Part shown: in pieces, positions 3,998 through 47,450 of the stretch
Layout of the letters: every line of letters begins with the position of its first letter
How positions within the stretch are numbered: the stretch's first letter is position 1
Assembly (NCBI RefSeq): GCF_000024905.1
Contig: NC_013522.1
Location: 496,001-560,000, forward strand
Source of the DNA: Thermanaerovibrio acidaminovorans DSM 6589
GTDB taxonomy: Bacteria; Synergistota; Synergistia; Synergistales; Synergistaceae
Direction: 5' to 3'
Length of the DNA stretch: 64,000 nt
Made by a program: the position numbers and the translations under genes
Notes under the pieces: model-generated
What the model saw: the letters and a program-made list of their open reading frames with translations, nothing else
What the model was told of the DNA's origin: nothing
Database searches by the model: none

Positions 3998-5856
3998 GGC
4001 TTTCTTCCCCGGAGGATCTGGAGCTCTACAGGGAGCAGCTCCTTAGGCGCGTTAAGCCCCAGCGGTGGGTCCGGGTCTGCGCCGGCACCGGGTGTCTCGC
4101 CGGCGGTAGCCAGGGGGTCTACGAGGCCCTGGTGGAGGAGGCCCGGCGGATAGGGTTGGACTCGCCGGTAAAGTTCCAGGCCAGGTGTTCCGGATGCCAC
4201 GGTTTCTGCGAGGAGGGGCCCCTGGTGGTCTGCGGCATGGGGGATTCGGAGGTCCTCTACAGGAAGGTCAGGCGGGAGGACGCGCTGGAGATCCTCCTGG
4301 CCCTGGCGGATGACCGGGTGGTGGAGCGGCTCCTCTACCGGGACGGCCGGGAGGTCTACCGGGAGGAGCGGCACATCCCCTTCTACGCCCTCCAGAGGCG
4401 GAAGGTGTTGGAGCGGTGCGGCAAGGTGGACCCCCGGGACGTGGACCACTACATCTCCCTGGGGGGCTACGCCTCCCTGGCCAGGGCCCTGTCCATGTCG
4501 CCCGAGGAGGTCATAGACTGGGTCACCCGGGCGGGCCTTAGAGGCCGCGGGGGTGGGGGCTTCCCGGCGGGGCAGAAGTGGGCCTCCTGCAGGTCCGCCT
4601 CGGGCCCCCAGAAGTTCGTGCTGGCCAACGGCGATGAGGGGGACCCGGGGGCCTTCATGGACCGGAGCCTGATGGAGGGGGACCCTCACTCGATCCTGGA
4701 GGGGATGATAATCGGGGCCCACGCGGTGGGGGCCTCCAAGGGGTTCATATACGTCCGGGACGAGTACCCCCTGGCGGTGGAGAACCTGGCCCACGCCATC
4801 CGGGAGGCCCGGCGGCTGGGGCTGCTTGGAAGGCGCATCCTTGGATCTGACCTTTCCTTCGACGTGGACATATGCCGGGGGGGCGGGGCCTTCGTCTGCG
4901 GCGAGTCCTCGGCCCTCATGGCCTCCATCGAGGGCAGGCCCGGGGAGCCCCGGGTCAAGTACATAAGGTCCACCGAGCGGGGCCTCTGGGAGTGTCCCAC
5001 GGTGCTGAACAACGTGGAGACCTGGGCCAACGTGCCCATCATCATCCGGGAGGGGGTGGATGGCTACAGGTCCCTGGGGACCAAGGACAGCCCGGGTACC
5101 AAGGTCTTCTCCCTGGTGGGCAAGGTCCGCCGGAGCGGCCTGGTGGAGGTCCCCATGGGGACGACCCTCCGGGAGATCATCTTCGAGATAGGCGGAGGGG
5201 TCATGGGCCGGAACCGGTTCAAGGCGGTCCAGACCGGGGGCCCATCCGGCGGGTGCCTGCCGGAGTCCAAGCTGGACCTGCCGGTGGACTTCGACCGTCT
5301 CACCCGGGAGGGGTCCATGATGGGCTCCGGGGGGATGATCGTCATGGACCACCGGAGCTGCATGGTGGACGTGGCCCGCTACTTCGTGAAGTTCCTGGAG
5401 GGGGAGTCCTGTGGCAAGTGCGCCCCCTGCAGGGAGGGTCTCAAGGCCATGGGGGAGATCCTGGAGGACCTGTGCTCCCGCCGGGGCCGCCCCGGCGACG
5501 TGGAGATGCTCCTCTTCATGGGCAACGCCCTGACCGACACGGCCCTCTGCGGCCTGGGCCAGACCGCGGCTAACCCGGTGCTCTCCACCCTGCGCCACTT
5601 CATGGAGGAGTACCGGGAGCACCAGGACCAGGGCTTCTGCCGGGCGGGGGTCTGCCGGGGCATGTTCGTAGCCCGGGTGGAGGCGGACCTGTGCGTATCC
5701 TGCGGCGCCTGCGCCAAGGTATGCCCCTTCGACGCCATACACAGGGATCCTTCCGGCAAGTTCGCGGTTGATCGGCGCTGTGAGGGTTGCGGGGCGTGCC
5801 TGGATGTCTGCCCCATGGGGGCCCTTTTGCCATCTCCTCGGGGGGTGAGGGAGTGA
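3994..5856 (+). CDS. NuoF-like FMN/NAD-binding subunit with added ferredoxin domains (HydB type)
   Basis: A 620-residue electron-transfer subunit. The domain order matches HydB/NfnB-like bifurcating flavoproteins: an N-terminal thioredoxin-like [2Fe-2S] domain (C29, C34, C68, C72, plus an extra C65), the NuoF core with FMN site [10 protein letters not shown] (about 181-190) and NAD site [12 protein letters not shown] (about 212-223), an SLBB region, the [4Fe-4S] motif [10 protein letters not shown] with a distal Cys in TALCGLGQ, and a C-terminal pair of [4Fe-4S] ferredoxin motifs ([12 protein letters not shown] and [12 protein letters not shown]). It is the likely site of NAD+ reduction and, if the complex bifurcates, of electron bifurcation. 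The ATG overlaps the previous stop by 4 nt; open frame further upstream is only read-through of that gene. Confidence 0.9.
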
Positions 5857-42851: not shown

Positions 42852-44207
42852 GTGGAACCTAAAGGTAAGTTTCGTGTAGGTAGCGTTTTTGCCCTGCTGG
42901 TCCTGTGCCTGGGCCTGATGATATGTGGCGCCGCCCAGGGGGCGGAGGAGGCTGGGACCCTGTCGCAGTTTGCGGTTCGATTCGAGGCCACCTACGGGGA
43001 GCTGGCGGAGTTGGCGGACTCCAAGCTCCCGCTTCGCATAGATGGCAGGGAGACCTACTCCCAGGGTCCCCTGTCGGGCAACGTGAGGTACGTGGTGACT
43101 CGCAAGGGGAGGCCGGTGGTGAGGCGAATGGGGGACCGGGTGGCCATGGATGTCCCCCTCTACTTCAGCGTCACCTTCAGCAGCGGGGTTGGGATCCCCG
43201 TGTCCGCCAACGCGGACGGGGAATTGGTGGCCACGGTTATAAGCCGCCCGAGGCTAACCCCGGACTGGCGGGTGGCCACCGATCCGGAGGTGCGGATAGC
43301 CTGGAGGAAGCCCCCGGCGGTCAACATGATGGGCTTCCGGGTGTCCTTCCAGCCCGTGGCGGATCGGGTCCTCAACGACTGGGTCGCCCAGAGGAAGGGG
43401 CGGCTCGATGTGATCCTGAACGAAAAGCTGAACCTGCGGCGCCGGGCGGACGAGCTATGGCGGGCCCTCTCGAAGCCGGTTCCCATCGGGGAGGGGGACA
43501 TCCTGTGGCTGGTGGCTCGGCCGGAGCGGTTCTGGGCCTCCCCCCTTCAGGTCACGTCCAAGGGGATCCTCATGTCCGCCGGGCTGGACGCCAGGATGAG
43601 GGTGGTTGGGGGTGCGTTCCCCGGCCGTCCATCGGTGGCGCCCCTGCCAAATCTGTCCAGCGGCGCCGGGGACGGCACCTTCCGGGTGATACTCCCCGCC
43701 ACTATTCACTATGCGTTTGTTAATTCCCTGATAGCCAAGAACTGGACCCCTCGGGACATCCGGATGCCCGACGGTGGGGTGGCTAGGCTCGAGAGGTTCG
43801 GCATGACCGGCCGCCAGGACCGGTTCGTCCTGGGGGCCCAGCTGATAGGAACCGACAGCAAGGGATCCCCCTTCGACTCGGTGGTCAACTTCGTGGGGCG
43901 CCCCTCCTACGACGTGGCCACCAGGACCGTGGCCATAGAGGACCTTCAGGTGGAGTCCGACGGGGCATTGGCGTTCCTGAACGATTCGGTGGCCCCCGCC
44001 CTGAGGGACGTGCTCCGCTTCCCCATCGGGGATCAGCTTGACCAGCTGAGCCAGGGCCTTCAGGGGGCCCTGTCGGGGCTCAGCTACGGGGGGGCCAGGC
44101 TGGACTTCCGCCCCACCAGCTTCGGGGTGATCGGCGTCTCCGCCGACTCCCAGGGGATGCACGCCAAGGTCCAGGCCCAGGGGACCGTCACCGTATCTTT
44201 AAAGTAG
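42852..44207 (+). CDS. DUF4403 family exported protein
   Basis: A 451-residue protein with a signal peptide (FALLVLCLGLMICGAAQG). The two-fold arrangement, LPLRIDGRE near the start, a TPDWRVATDPEVRI segment, a helical VADRVLNDWVAQRKGRLDVIL followed by LWRALSKPVPI, and a second half with LPATIHYAFVNSLIA, fit DUF4403, whose members are SMP/BPI-like lipid-binding candidates of the envelope. I cannot assign a ligand. GTG start 3 nt after recD2. Confidence 0.75.
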   Translation: MEPKGKFRVGSVFALLVLCLGLMICGAAQGAEEAGTLSQFAVRFEATYGELAELADSKLPLRIDGRETYSQGPLSGNVRYVVTRKGRPVVRRMGDRVAMDVPLYFSVTFSSGVGIPVSANADGELVATVISRPRLTPDWRVATDPEVRIAWRKPPAVNMMGFRVSFQPVADRVLNDWVAQRKGRLDVILNEKLNLRRRADELWRALSKPVPIGEGDILWLVARPERFWASPLQVTSKGILMSAGLDARMRVVGGAFPGRPSVAPLPNLSSGAGDGTFRVILPATIHYAFVNSLIAKNWTPRDIRMPDGGVARLERFGMTGRQDRFVLGAQLIGTDSKGSPFDSVVNFVGRPSYDVATRTVAIEDLQVESDGALAFLNDSVAPALRDVLRFPIGDQLDQLSQGLQGALSGLSYGGARLDFRPTSFGVIGVSADSQGMHAKVQAQGTVTVSLK

Positions 44208-44256
44208 GCCCGGCAGGGCTTAGATATAGATGAAAATCATGTAATAGGGGGGATCT

Positions 44257-45174
44257 ATGATGAGGTTAGGAAAGGGAATCAGGGGGTTGGTCCTATCGTT
44301 TCTTTTGGTGGCCCTCTTGGCCTGCGCCGGTGAGGCCAAGACCGCGCTGGTGTTCCAGACGGACTTCGGCCTCAAGGACGGGGCTGTGTCCGCCATGAAG
44401 GGGGTGGCGTTCGGGGTGGATCAGGATCTTCCGATGTTCGACCTTACCCACGAGATCCCCGCCTTCTCCATCTGGGACGGGGCGTACCGCCTCTACCAGA
44501 CCCTGGAGTTCTGGCCCAAGGGCACGGTCTTCGTCTCGGTGGTGGATCCCGGGGTGGGCACCGAGAGGAAGCCTGTGGTGGTTAGGACCAAGTCGGGACA
44601 CTACGTGGTCACCCCGGACAACGGCACGGTTACCTTGATCATGGATTCCATAGGGATTGACCAGGTCAGGACCATAGACGAGACCAAGCACCGACTGAAG
44701 GGCTCCGAGCGGTCCTATACCTTCCACGGCCGGGATCTCTTCGCCTACACGGGGGCCAAGCTCGCCTCCGGCAAGATATCCTTCGAGGAAGTGGGCCCCC
44801 TCCTAAAGGGTCAGCCGGTGCGGATCCCCTATCAGAGGGCGGAGATCAAGGACGGGGCGGCGTTGGGCACCATACCGGTGTTGGACGTCCAGTACGGCAA
44901 CGTGTGGACCAACATAGGGGCGGATCTGTTCGATAGCTTCAAGCCCTCCAAGGGGAAGCTCTACGAGGTAAGGATCCTCAAGGAGGGCAAGGAGGTATAT
45001 AGGGGCACGGTGCCGTTCGCGGACACCTTCGGCGACGTGCCGGAGGGGAAGCCCCTTCTCTACTACAACAGCCTCATGAACCTGTCGCTGGCCCTCAACA
45101 TGGACAGCTTCGCCGACAAGCACAAGGTCTCCTCCGGTCCCGAGTGGTCTGTGGTGGTCCGTCCCGTCAAGTAA
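44257..45174 (+). CDS. SAM hydroxide adenosyltransferase (DUF62 family) with signal peptide
   Basis: A 305-residue protein of the fluorinase/chlorinase superfamily whose simple members hydrolyse SAM to adenosine and methionine. The Asp-Arg-His triad of these enzymes is intact: VVDPGVGTER (D97, R104) and FHGRDLFA (H157), with QTDFG at 35-39 and PDNGT. Unusually, a clear signal peptide or lipoprotein-like leader (LVLSFLLVALLACAGEA) precedes the domain. It is preceded by the exported DUF4403 gene and followed by a strong terminator. Confidence 0.9.
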   Translation: MMRLGKGIRGLVLSFLLVALLACAGEAKTALVFQTDFGLKDGAVSAMKGVAFGVDQDLPMFDLTHEIPAFSIWDGAYRLYQTLEFWPKGTVFVSVVDPGVGTERKPVVVRTKSGHYVVTPDNGTVTLIMDSIGIDQVRTIDETKHRLKGSERSYTFHGRDLFAYTGAKLASGKISFEEVGPLLKGQPVRIPYQRAEIKDGAALGTIPVLDVQYGNVWTNIGADLFDSFKPSKGKLYEVRILKEGKEVYRGTVPFADTFGDVPEGKPLLYYNSLMNLSLALNMDSFADKHKVSSGPEWSVVVRPVK

Positions 45175-45217: not shown

Positions 45218-46228
45218 TCAATCCCTGCCTATGGAGATGATGTCCGTGAGGAGCGCCTGGGCGGTCTCGTCCCGCCCCGCACCGGGACCCGAGACGGTGA
45301 CCTTTCCCAGGTGATCGGTCCAGATGGTGGCGGCGTTCACCGCCCCCCCGATCCCGTGGAGCGGGTGGTCCGCCTCCAGCTCCTGGGGTTTCACCTGGGC
45401 CATTATCGACTCCCCTTGGGTCCACAGGGACGCCACCAGCTTCACCGACCGGCCGGATCTCGCCGCCCTCTCCACCTGCTCCCCGGTCAGCCCCGATATG
45501 CCGGTGCGGTCCACCTGGTCAACCCCTATCTCCCGCCGGAACGCCACCCAGGCTAGGATGCATAGCTTGACCGCCGGGTCGAAGCCCTCCACGTCGGCGG
45601 TGGGGTCCGCCTCCGCGTACCCCAGATCCTGGGCCTCCTCGAGGGCCTCCGGGTAGCTGAGTCCCTGGGCCATCCGGGTAAGCATGTAGTTGGTGGTGCC
45701 GTTGAGGATCCCCTCTATCCTGGATATGGAGCAGCCCGCCAGGCCGTTCCTTATGAGGCTTATCAGGGGGGTCCCGCTCATCACCGCCCCCTCGTAGAGG
45801 AACTTGAGCCCCCGCTCCCGGGCCATCTCCTCCAGCTCCCGGGCCGCCACCGCCAGGGGCCCCTTGCTGGTGGTCACGAAGTGGGCCCCGGACGACAGGG
45901 CCCCGCGGGCGTTGGAGAGCCCCGGCTCCCCGGTCCGGAGGTCCGTTGGGGTGGCGTCCGCCACCACCGTGGCGCCCATGGACTTCACCACCTCGGACAC
46001 GTCCCCCCGGAAGGCCTCGGGCAGGGCCCCCCGGTCCAGCATCTCCAGGACCGCCCCGGGGTCCAGCCCCTGGGAATCCGCCGCGGCCCCCACTCGGGGA
46101 TCCCCCACGTACACCAGCCTCATCCTGACCCCGTATGCCCCCTCCAGGTGCCGTCCCTTACGGTTCAGTATCCCTATCAGGGCCTTGCCCACGTTGCCGC
46201 ACCCCAGAAGGGCTATCCGCTGCTCCAA
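45218..46228 (-). CDS. hom: Homoserine dehydrogenase
   Basis: A 336-residue NAD(P)-dependent enzyme making homoserine from aspartate semialdehyde. The dinucleotide fold LLGCGNVGKAL, TTSKGPLAVA, EGAVMSGTPLI, the ILNGTTNYMLTRM strand and AEADPTADVEGFDPAVKL are diagnostic. It lacks the C-terminal ACT domain, so it is probably not threonine-inhibited. TTG start with AAGGGGG at 7 nt. It follows the NlpC/P60 gene by 22 nt on the same strand. Confidence 0.93.
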   Translation of the reverse strand: MEQRIALLGCGNVGKALIGILNRKGRHLEGAYGVRMRLVYVGDPRVGAAADSQGLDPGAVLEMLDRGALPEAFRGDVSEVVKSMGATVVADATPTDLRTGEPGLSNARGALSSGAHFVTTSKGPLAVAARELEEMARERGLKFLYEGAVMSGTPLISLIRNGLAGCSISRIEGILNGTTNYMLTRMAQGLSYPEALEEAQDLGYAEADPTADVEGFDPAVKLCILAWVAFRREIGVDQVDRTGISGLTGEQVERAARSGRSVKLVASLWTQGESIMAQVKPQELEADHPLHGIGGAVNAATIWTDHLGKVTVSGPGAGRDETAQALLTDIISIGRD

Positions 46229-46250: not shown

Positions 46251-47450
46251 TTAGGGAGAAGTATAGCACACCCCCGGAGGGAACCAGGGGAAGACCATCT
46301 TGATGACCCGGTCTATCAGCGGTGGCTCCCCGATGTTCAGGTCCGTTACCACGCAGCGGCCTATTACCTCCTCCTGCCCTCCGCGCTTCACGCTCCAGAT
46401 GTTGTGTAGCACCGTTGGGTTGAGGCCCTGGGAGCCGGTGTAGAGCATCACGTGCCCCCGCATGTAGAGGATGGTCATGAAGGGTACCCCCCGTTCGACT
46501 ATGATCCTGGCCTTGGCCGTCCTCCCCAGGTTGGACAGGTCCACGCCGGGCAGGTCCCCCTGTCCCCTGGAGTTCCTTGGGATCCAGCTGCCGAAGGGGG
46601 TGAAGATGTCCCGGGTGGTGGAGGAGCAGTCCCGGTTCCAGTTCTGGCCCCCCCAGCCGTAGGGTTGCCCCAGCATGGATGAGGCGATCTGGGACAGCAG
46701 CTCCCGGCTGGGCTCGAGCGGAAAGGGCTTGAGGGTCCCCTCGGGGGCCCGGGCGGGCACCAGGGAGGCGGTACCTTCAGAGGGATCCCAGCGGACCACC
46801 ATTGGCTCACCGTCCTCCCCCATGGGGATGAGGGCGCCTATGTGGGCCTCCAGGGCGGAGATCCCGGAGGTGTAGGTTATTACCGTCCGGTCCCTCACCA
46901 CCGCCAGCATGGGCATGCTCATGATCCGGGTCATCAGAGGAGGGTCCACTATGGCCACCGCGTCCTCCCGAACCCAGCCGGAGGCCCAGGGGGTGGTGAC
47001 CAGTAGCCACCCCTCACCCCGGCGGGTGATGGACAGGGGCTCCATGGGGTGGACCGTGCCGTTCTGTAGCCGGTCGAAGGGGTACGACGTCTTAGGCCCC
47101 CCGGGGGGCTCGAAGAGCGGTTCTTCGGTGGGCAGGACCCTTAGGTGGGCCTCCTTGATGGAGATTCCCTTCAGGTTCACCGCCGCGGCGGAGAGGGCCC
47201 GGTTTAGCCAGGCCTCCTTGGTGCTCCGGTCCACGGGCCGCAGGTTGCTCCCCAGGTGCTGGCCGTTCAGGATCTCCTGGTACCATCCAGTCCAGTTCTC
47301 CTCCCGGGCCTCCTGGGTCCAGGGCCTGAAGTATCGCTCCAGGAAGGCCCCGGCGGGCCCGTTGGAACGGACCTCATTCCCCAGGGCGACGGGGCTGGTT
47401 AGGGTGCACAGCAGGAGCGCAAGGGGGATCAGCTTCAGCATGTGGCGCAT
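46251..47450 (-). CDS. NlpC/P60 cell-wall hydrolase with SH3 domains
   Basis: A 399-residue exported cysteine peptidase. After the signal peptide (LIPLALLLCTLTSPVALG) there is an N-terminal helical domain, SH3-like segments (ISIKEAHLRVLPTEEP, SITRRGEGWLLVTT, SGWVREDAVAI) and a C-terminal NlpC/P60 domain: catalytic Cys in NRDCSSTTRDIF, His in RGHVMLYTG and the third polar residue near VLHNIWS. GQPYGWGG is the family lead-in. It should cut peptide stems of peptidoglycan. The ATG lies just after a terminator whose 3' arm supplies GGGAGG at 8 nt. Confidence 0.9.
   Translation of the reverse strand: MRHMLKLIPLALLLCTLTSPVALGNEVRSNGPAGAFLERYFRPWTQEAREENWTGWYQEILNGQHLGSNLRPVDRSTKEAWLNRALSAAAVNLKGISIKEAHLRVLPTEEPLFEPPGGPKTSYPFDRLQNGTVHPMEPLSITRRGEGWLLVTTPWASGWVREDAVAIVDPPLMTRIMSMPMLAVVRDRTVITYTSGISALEAHIGALIPMGEDGEPMVVRWDPSEGTASLVPARAPEGTLKPFPLEPSRELLSQIASSMLGQPYGWGGQNWNRDCSSTTRDIFTPFGSWIPRNSRGQGDLPGVDLSNLGRTAKARIIVERGVPFMTILYMRGHVMLYTGSQGLNPTVLHNIWSVKRGGQEEVIGRCVVTDLNIGEPPLIDRVIKMVFPWFPPGVCYTSP

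Follow-up and report, generated by a model that had tools for sequence, protein, structure and literature searches.

A putatively exported SAM hydrolase-family enzyme of Thermanaerovibrio acidaminovorans belongs to a cross-phylum DUF62 branch that may harvest methionine from extracellular SAM

What could a hydrolase of S-adenosylmethionine (SAM), a cytoplasmic compound, do outside the inner membrane? The question is raised by a DUF62 gene within the window, the 64,000-nucleotide stretch of T. acidaminovorans DNA analyzed here, whose product begins with an apparent export leader. The first-pass annotation had taken the presence of this leader to imply either another substrate or an external role. 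The gene, its parts and its neighbors are as follows.

42852..44207, + strand: upstream neighbor, DUF4403 (5.4e-99), itself starting with a leader-like sequence; separated from the window gene by 49 bp
44246..44253, + strand: Shine-Dalgarno-like purine run agggggga just 5' of the ATG, read from the sequence
44257..45174, + strand: SAM hydroxide adenosyltransferase gene (SAM hydrolase, DUF62), putatively exported; 305 aa, ATG start, stop included
44257..44337, + strand: leader, codons 1-27, with basic n-region, hydrophobic core and GEA/K end (probably type I, although C23 could belong to a lipobox)
44338..45171, + strand: mature enzyme, residues 28-305, modeled by AlphaFold2 at pLDDT 89.8, with 2zbu as the nearest solved structure
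44362..44364, + strand: D36 of TDFG, invariant in every group aligned
44545..44547, + strand: D97, triad Asp, by alignment
44566..44568, + strand: R104, triad Arg, by alignment
44725..44727, + strand: H157, triad His, by alignment; 9 of the 12 exported members from Synergistota have Phe or Leu here
44905..44907, + strand: W217 of YGNVW, present in 120/120 exported, 9/9 leaderless-clade and 0/23 canonical sequences
45221-46228, - strand: homoserine dehydrogenase, convergent, by domain match
46254-47450, - strand: NlpC/P60 protein with an SH3b1 domain and a leader-like N-terminus, by domain match

The predicted product carries both Pfam domains of the family, SAM_HAT_N (PF01887) over residues 32-180 (1.2e-52; 177.9 bits against a cutoff of 26.3) and SAM_HAT_C (PF20257) over residues 204-297 (3.6e-19; 69.3 bits against 25.5), and it is the single PF01887 match in the window genome (1,848,474 bp, one contig). 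Membership at the level of the fold was assessed with an AlphaFold2 model built from an alignment of 35 branch members. All 40 of the 40 Foldseek matches at E values up to 0.001 were chains of the DUF62/chlorinase/fluorinase family, with Thermotoga maritima 2zbu at the top. Alignment with 2zbu and the chlorinase SalL placed the catalytic triad at D97, R104 and H157, in agreement with the first-pass annotation, which had described an intact Asp-Arg-His triad. SalL has Y, T and Y at these positions, and a halogenase identity was ruled out because the triad is retained. The window protein did not reach the cutoff of the fluorinase model TIGR04507 (79.7 of 400 bits) and scored below those of the (R)-SAM hydrolase equivalogs NF058624 and NF053629 (122.7 of 350 and 118.6 of 470 bits, respectively). 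Judged from its sequence, the window open reading frame encodes a complete member of the DUF62 family in which the hydrolase triad is intact. It shares the fold (TM-score of 0.83 to 2zbu), both Pfam domains and the D-R-H triad with the characterized hydrolases PH0463, T. maritima 2zbu, MJ1651 and StDUF62, and differs from them in the addition of a leader and of residues W86, A43 and W217. With SalL and FlA it has the fold in common, and the YGNVWTNI-like motif and A43 are as in SalL; in contrast to SalL, however, it keeps D97, R104 and H157, and a halide pocket would not be expected. To our knowledge, the characterized DUF62 members are cytoplasmic.

Residues 1-27 of the window protein (MMRLGKGIRGLVLSFLLVALLACAGEA) comprise a basic n-region, a hydrophobic core and a polar segment that ends in GEA/K (the slash marks the putative cleavage point). 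The leader was called from hydropathy and conservation among orthologues. An A-x-A-like end lies at approximately the same position in nine Synergistota branch loci outside the genus (for example, ASA/K and GLA/K), making cleavage by signal peptidase I the likelier prediction; the genus-specific LLAC could be a lipobox. The first-pass annotation had proposed a signal or lipoprotein leader and had suggested a survey of leader-bearing DUF62 proteins in Synergistota. The leader is borne out by hydropathy and by its recurrence: under the hydropathy rule, 118 of the 119 sequences in the exported score class begin with one, and in the survey all 12 Synergistota members of the exported branch carried one. 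The counts covered 119 exported (without L216), 8 leaderless (without L215), 11 second-tier and 23 canonical sequences; L063 has no usable start, and the one leader call among the leaderless sequences (L197) depends on a TTG start and was discounted. Only 1 of the 23 canonical relatives has a leader, and this exception (L135) looks like a real lipoprotein. A second exported group, formed by Acidobacteriota loci L124-L134 (194-238 bits) and separate from the main branch, is leadered in 11 of 11 cases and keeps the triad His in 11 of 11 and the Arg in 10 of 11. Leaders diverge in sequence and in type: a loose lipobox pattern is present in 37, a few of these probably by chance, and the clear lipobox leaders belong mostly to spirochaete and Bacteroidota sequences. 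Retention of export despite such divergence is what selection for export would predict. Translation from a start downstream of the leader, which the first-pass annotation had named as a refutation, was not supported, as the sole in-frame ATG, GTG or TTG between the leader end and D36 is a GTG at V32, inside strand beta1 (precursor residues 31-35).

A profile of the exported branch divided the loci into distinct score classes. Sequences with a profile score of at least 380 bits were assigned to the exported class, and the leaderless clade was separated from it by hand after inspection of the scores. The exported class spans Bacteroidota, Aeromonas, Escherichia coli, Treponema, Verrucomicrobiota and others; the best 80 of 227 relatives, at 56-70% identity, come from Synergistota, Aeromonas, Pasteurellaceae, Cardiobacteriaceae, Bacteroidota, Verrucomicrobiota, KSB1, Treponema and Holophagaceae. 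Within Synergistota, the family was found in 21 of 185 genomes, 12 with leadered members and 9 with a separate leaderless group of 28-34% identity, whose neighbors in L013 are Jag/KhpB- and HtrA-like and whose corresponding neighbor clusters recur in 7/9 and 8/9 loci. With the profile at E values up to 1e-50, matches were found in 31 of 247 Spirochaetota genomes (5 hold leaderless members) and in 3 of 398 Pseudomonadota genomes, the search-centre genome being counted in both cases, while among 247 Acidobacteriota genomes a main-branch member was found only in the search-centre genome. A second PF01887 member was absent from 9 of the 12 scanned genomes that hold an exported member. In E. coli, 2374 of 5426 complete genomes contain a match. 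The E. coli gene (L206, L210, L211), named SAM hydrolase/SAM-dependent halogenase family protein in RefSeq, lies in two records inspected between uvrD and yigE, the latter encoding a NAGPA-type glycosidase. It is absent from the yigE-uvrD locus of K-12 MG1655, whereas the E. coli control genome matches PF01887. A leadered homologue, by eye much like the E. coli protein, is also present in a Helicobacter pylori prophage record (L216, 4965-5867).

For phylogenetic analysis, 46 duplicate-named loci and matches of fewer than 240 model columns were removed, leaving 163 rows, or 89 after an 85% identity cut. The tree was built without the leaders, using a quick search with SH-aLRT support and no bootstrap, and long branches were flagged, mostly among canonical rows. 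Exported and leaderless sequences together form one branch of 63 rows on a long stem (SH-aLRT of 100). Of these rows, 53 are exported and represent many phyla, 9 are leaderless and group as a single clade (96), and the last is L063. The seven exported Synergistota rows form a clade (97) beside Verrucomicrobiota (95). Exported and leaderless states require 3 changes on this tree, or 4 if L063 is treated as its own class, against a shuffled mean of 23.5. The predicted exported form is the rule, as far as the sequences indicate, in a large cross-phylum branch that includes E. coli.

The loci of the leaderless sister clade differ from those of the exported genes in the presence of importers. An importer adjoins the leaderless gene in 7 of 8 loci (an ECF S component in 5/8, SBP_bac_3 in 2/8), whereas ECF and SBP_bac_3 queries matched none of 100 exported loci, in a comparison that used seven query proteins, included many close relatives among the exported loci and covered flanks of mostly 3-6 kb, some of them cut. 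The ECF S component (PF07155, with a riboflavin-type annotation) is accompanied by an ATPase and a T component in three spirochaetes, an Enterococcus faecium plasmid and a Staphylococcus aureus-type contig, while an SBP_bac_3 amino acid binding protein and a permease lie beside the leaderless gene in two spirochaetes. Neither an ECF nor an SBP_bac_3 importer was found at the Listeria leaderless loci. Riboflavin was rejected as the substrate, since the S-component annotation is a family name only. Because the leaderless loci form one clade, leaderless versus exported is a contrast of two layouts and not of many independent events. The importer contrast fits a substrate that originates outside the cell. 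One spirochaete ECF cluster (L197, 936-9094) contains two copies of the leaderless enzyme, with PTS and transketolase genes upstream.

Evidence for methionine control was found upstream of three leaderless genes, two from Listeria (L207 and L217) and one from the E. faecium plasmid (L208). T-boxes (RF00230, 104.1-110.5 bits, cutoff 93) end approximately 69-101 nt 5' of these genes, and in all three the specifier reads AUG, then G, after a conserved GAA and one base, at the position that the specifier codon takes in T-boxes. The T-box preceding the permease-mmuM genes of the E. faecium plasmid likewise has AUG, at an equal distance from UGAG. There was no T-box at the S. aureus-type contig (L215), a SAM element was found in none of 17 loci scanned, and the RNA family scan detected no RNA element upstream of the window gene. 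A cobalamin riboswitch in L193 was rejected because it is located between the enzyme gene and the following gene. On the E. faecium plasmid (L208, 5989-9990), the leaderless enzyme and a complete ECF importer stand behind the Met T-box, between two IS1216-type transposase genes. With mmuM just outside, this is possibly a mobile methionine-salvage cassette.

A different form of methionine control was found for the exported gene of Aeromonas, which is preceded between about -30 and -80 by tandem 8-mers that closely resemble the MetJ box (AGACGTCT, as given in PMC4239095). Three-box MetJ scores over 200 nt upstream (maximum of 24) reached 16-17 in 13 of 24 Aeromonas loci and at least 14 in 20, the remaining 4 scoring 10-13. 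As controls, seven E. coli met promoters (metB, metJ, metF, metE, metR, metN and metA, some of which share DNA) scored 16-18, and other E. coli upstream regions scored 10-13, except for gmhB and yjaB, which share DNA with metN and metA. Among 134 other upstream regions from the Aeromonas loci, 13 scored at least 16, all of them of the divergent neighbor and so the same intergenic DNA; four scored 15 (two of the divergent neighbor and two from one other place in L029), and three scored 14. A metJ match was present in 3/3 Aeromonas genomes tested. No MetJ array was found upstream of the E. coli exported gene (three-box score of 11 of 24), and L042 and L199 (12 and 11), from genomes with metJ, likewise lacked one. 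Since a score of 15 also occurs in L198 (G1038) and L050 (G196), whose genomes lack a metJ match, we rely on scores of at least 16 together with the controls. The Aeromonas boxes may reflect one inherited event. PurR boxes were also considered and were rejected (best score of 11 of 16).

Taken with the leader, these observations lead us to propose, with moderate confidence, that the putatively exported enzyme splits extracellular SAM, giving methionine and adenosine for uptake. Outside the inner membrane, an activated water would attack the 5' carbon of SAM in line, with methionine as the leaving group, and the products, L-methionine and adenosine, would be imported by separate carriers. The gain to the cell would be methionine and purine regained from the SAM of lysed or leaking neighbors. 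In the leaderless sisters, the same reaction would take place inside the cell once the importer has delivered intact substrate. The role suggested for the window gene is carried over from its relatives, as the regulatory evidence comes from Aeromonas, Listeria and Enterococcus rather than from Synergistota. Free SAM is short-lived, which counts against scavenging. No PF03180 (MetQ-type) methionine binding protein was found in the window genome, and methionine uptake there would therefore need another carrier.

The surroundings of the exported genes bear on what the products might be used for. No neighbor conserved across lineages was seen among the loci compared. The leader-bearing DUF4403 protein that the first-pass annotation had noted ahead of the window gene is indeed encoded there, but its cluster adjoins the enzyme gene in only 3 genomes, all of the window genus, and it was rejected as a conserved partner; PhoX, TonB receptor and MauG neighbors, each in one lineage only, were rejected likewise. 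Several loci raise the alternative that the exported enzyme serves purine supply, or disposes of a sulfonium that is toxic or damaged, for example (R,S)-SAM, and does not serve methionine. The Holophagaceae member lies in a run of deoC, enzyme, Bmp, ATPase and permease genes, although the Bmp query matched 1 of 100 exported loci. A cytosine/purine-type permease is encoded 122-300 bp downstream in Synergistota L022 and L023 (the L022 protein was scanned, and that of L023 falls in the same cluster), and about 58 kb from the window gene its genome holds a run of a LacI regulator, Bmp, an ATPase, two permeases and an inosine-uridine nucleoside hydrolase. In addition, StDUF62 chiefly targets (R,S)-SAM, according to the substrate data cited from PMC12120602. 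We nevertheless regard a purine or damage-control function as unlikely, given the Met T-boxes or MetJ boxes in Listeria, Enterococcus and Aeromonas, and given that damage control would be expected in the cytoplasm, the site of SAM synthesis.

A second alternative is that the enzyme acts on a different nucleoside or sulfonium, or that its chemistry has drifted. Residues D36, D97, R104, N122, D160, D210, N215 and W217 show no variation among the 120 exported sequences, and the counterparts of D36, D97, N122, D210, N215 and W217 in relatives contact SAM. The triad His is replaced by Phe or Leu in L004-L012, with Asp and Arg retained, and these His-less Synergistota members could have lower activity, rely on a different base or have a different substrate. 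In the alignment the triad His is also missing from 9 of 23 canonical sequences (five E, two D, one Q and one F), whereas the hydrolase triad, His-Arg-Asp, is termed strictly conserved in a review's description of the family (PMC10491745). The loss of His, together with W86, A43 and W217, which mark the branch off from the canonical sequences aligned, would suit a changed substrate. Set against this, D36, D97, R104, N122, D160, D210 and W217 hold throughout the exported sequences, the window genus keeps the His, and SalL, which uses SAM, also has W217 and A43; we consider a different substrate or chemistry improbable, and more so than a purine or damage-control function. Of the two options named in the first-pass annotation, the external role is favored by the leader, and another substrate is not needed in view of the invariant D36, D97, N122, D210, N215 and W217 and of regulation that points to methionine in some relatives. 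As methionine is a product of SAM hydrolysis, an external role on SAM itself is the better reading.

It seems very improbable that the leader stems from misannotation and that the enzyme stays in the cytoplasm. Although the start of most canonical members lies no more than 7 residues from the domain and the GTG at V32 is available, that lone start codon falls in a strand and leaders of divergent sequence but like features, some with a lipobox, are found in 118 of 119 sequences.

Extended from the window gene to the branch, the proposal of methionine harvest would make extracellular SAM a nutrient. Whether a cross-phylum DUF62 branch harvests methionine, and with it adenosine, by two interchangeable layouts, in which either the hydrolase is exported or SAM is imported, under the methionine control at hand in several lineages (MetJ in Aeromonas; Met T-boxes in Listeria and Enterococcus), is in our estimation an evenly balanced matter. 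If true, it would give a physiological role to part of the DUF62 family, including the E. coli exported gene, and it predicts that SAM is an exchangeable nutrient within microbial communities. Why cells hydrolyze costly SAM is presented as unresolved in a 2025 paper (PMC12120602); the exported branch and the methionine control in some relatives would offer a concrete, testable answer for part of the family.

Two known systems resemble parts of this arrangement. The mmuPM system imports intact S-methylmethionine and transfers its methyl group, with no known external hydrolysis. Like the proposed pathway, it salvages an external sulfonium for methionine, under MetJ (in the regulon described in PMC4239095) or a Met T-box. 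The mtsABC transporter of Vibrionales, placed under MetJ in the regulon descriptions of PMC4239095 and PMC3228920 and described as ECF-type by one of them and as cobalt-type by the other, is a methionine-controlled importer that may in principle parallel the ECF importers beside the leaderless sisters. The terms "adenosyltransferase" and "DUF62" do not occur in the main texts of these two papers, and no paper on exported DUF62 members was found among the matches listed, judged by titles and the starts of abstracts. The enzyme family is known and the gene is annotated in RefSeq, but no description of the export or the role was found; the exported branch is widespread and apparently undescribed.

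Two further features were observed near exported members. The homoserine dehydrogenase encoded beside the window gene catalyzes a step toward methionine and threonine, a neighborhood that is probably due to chance. In L104, a molybdenum/tungsten (Moco) riboswitch aptamer (4665-4784, + strand) lies near the divergent genes next to an exported member.
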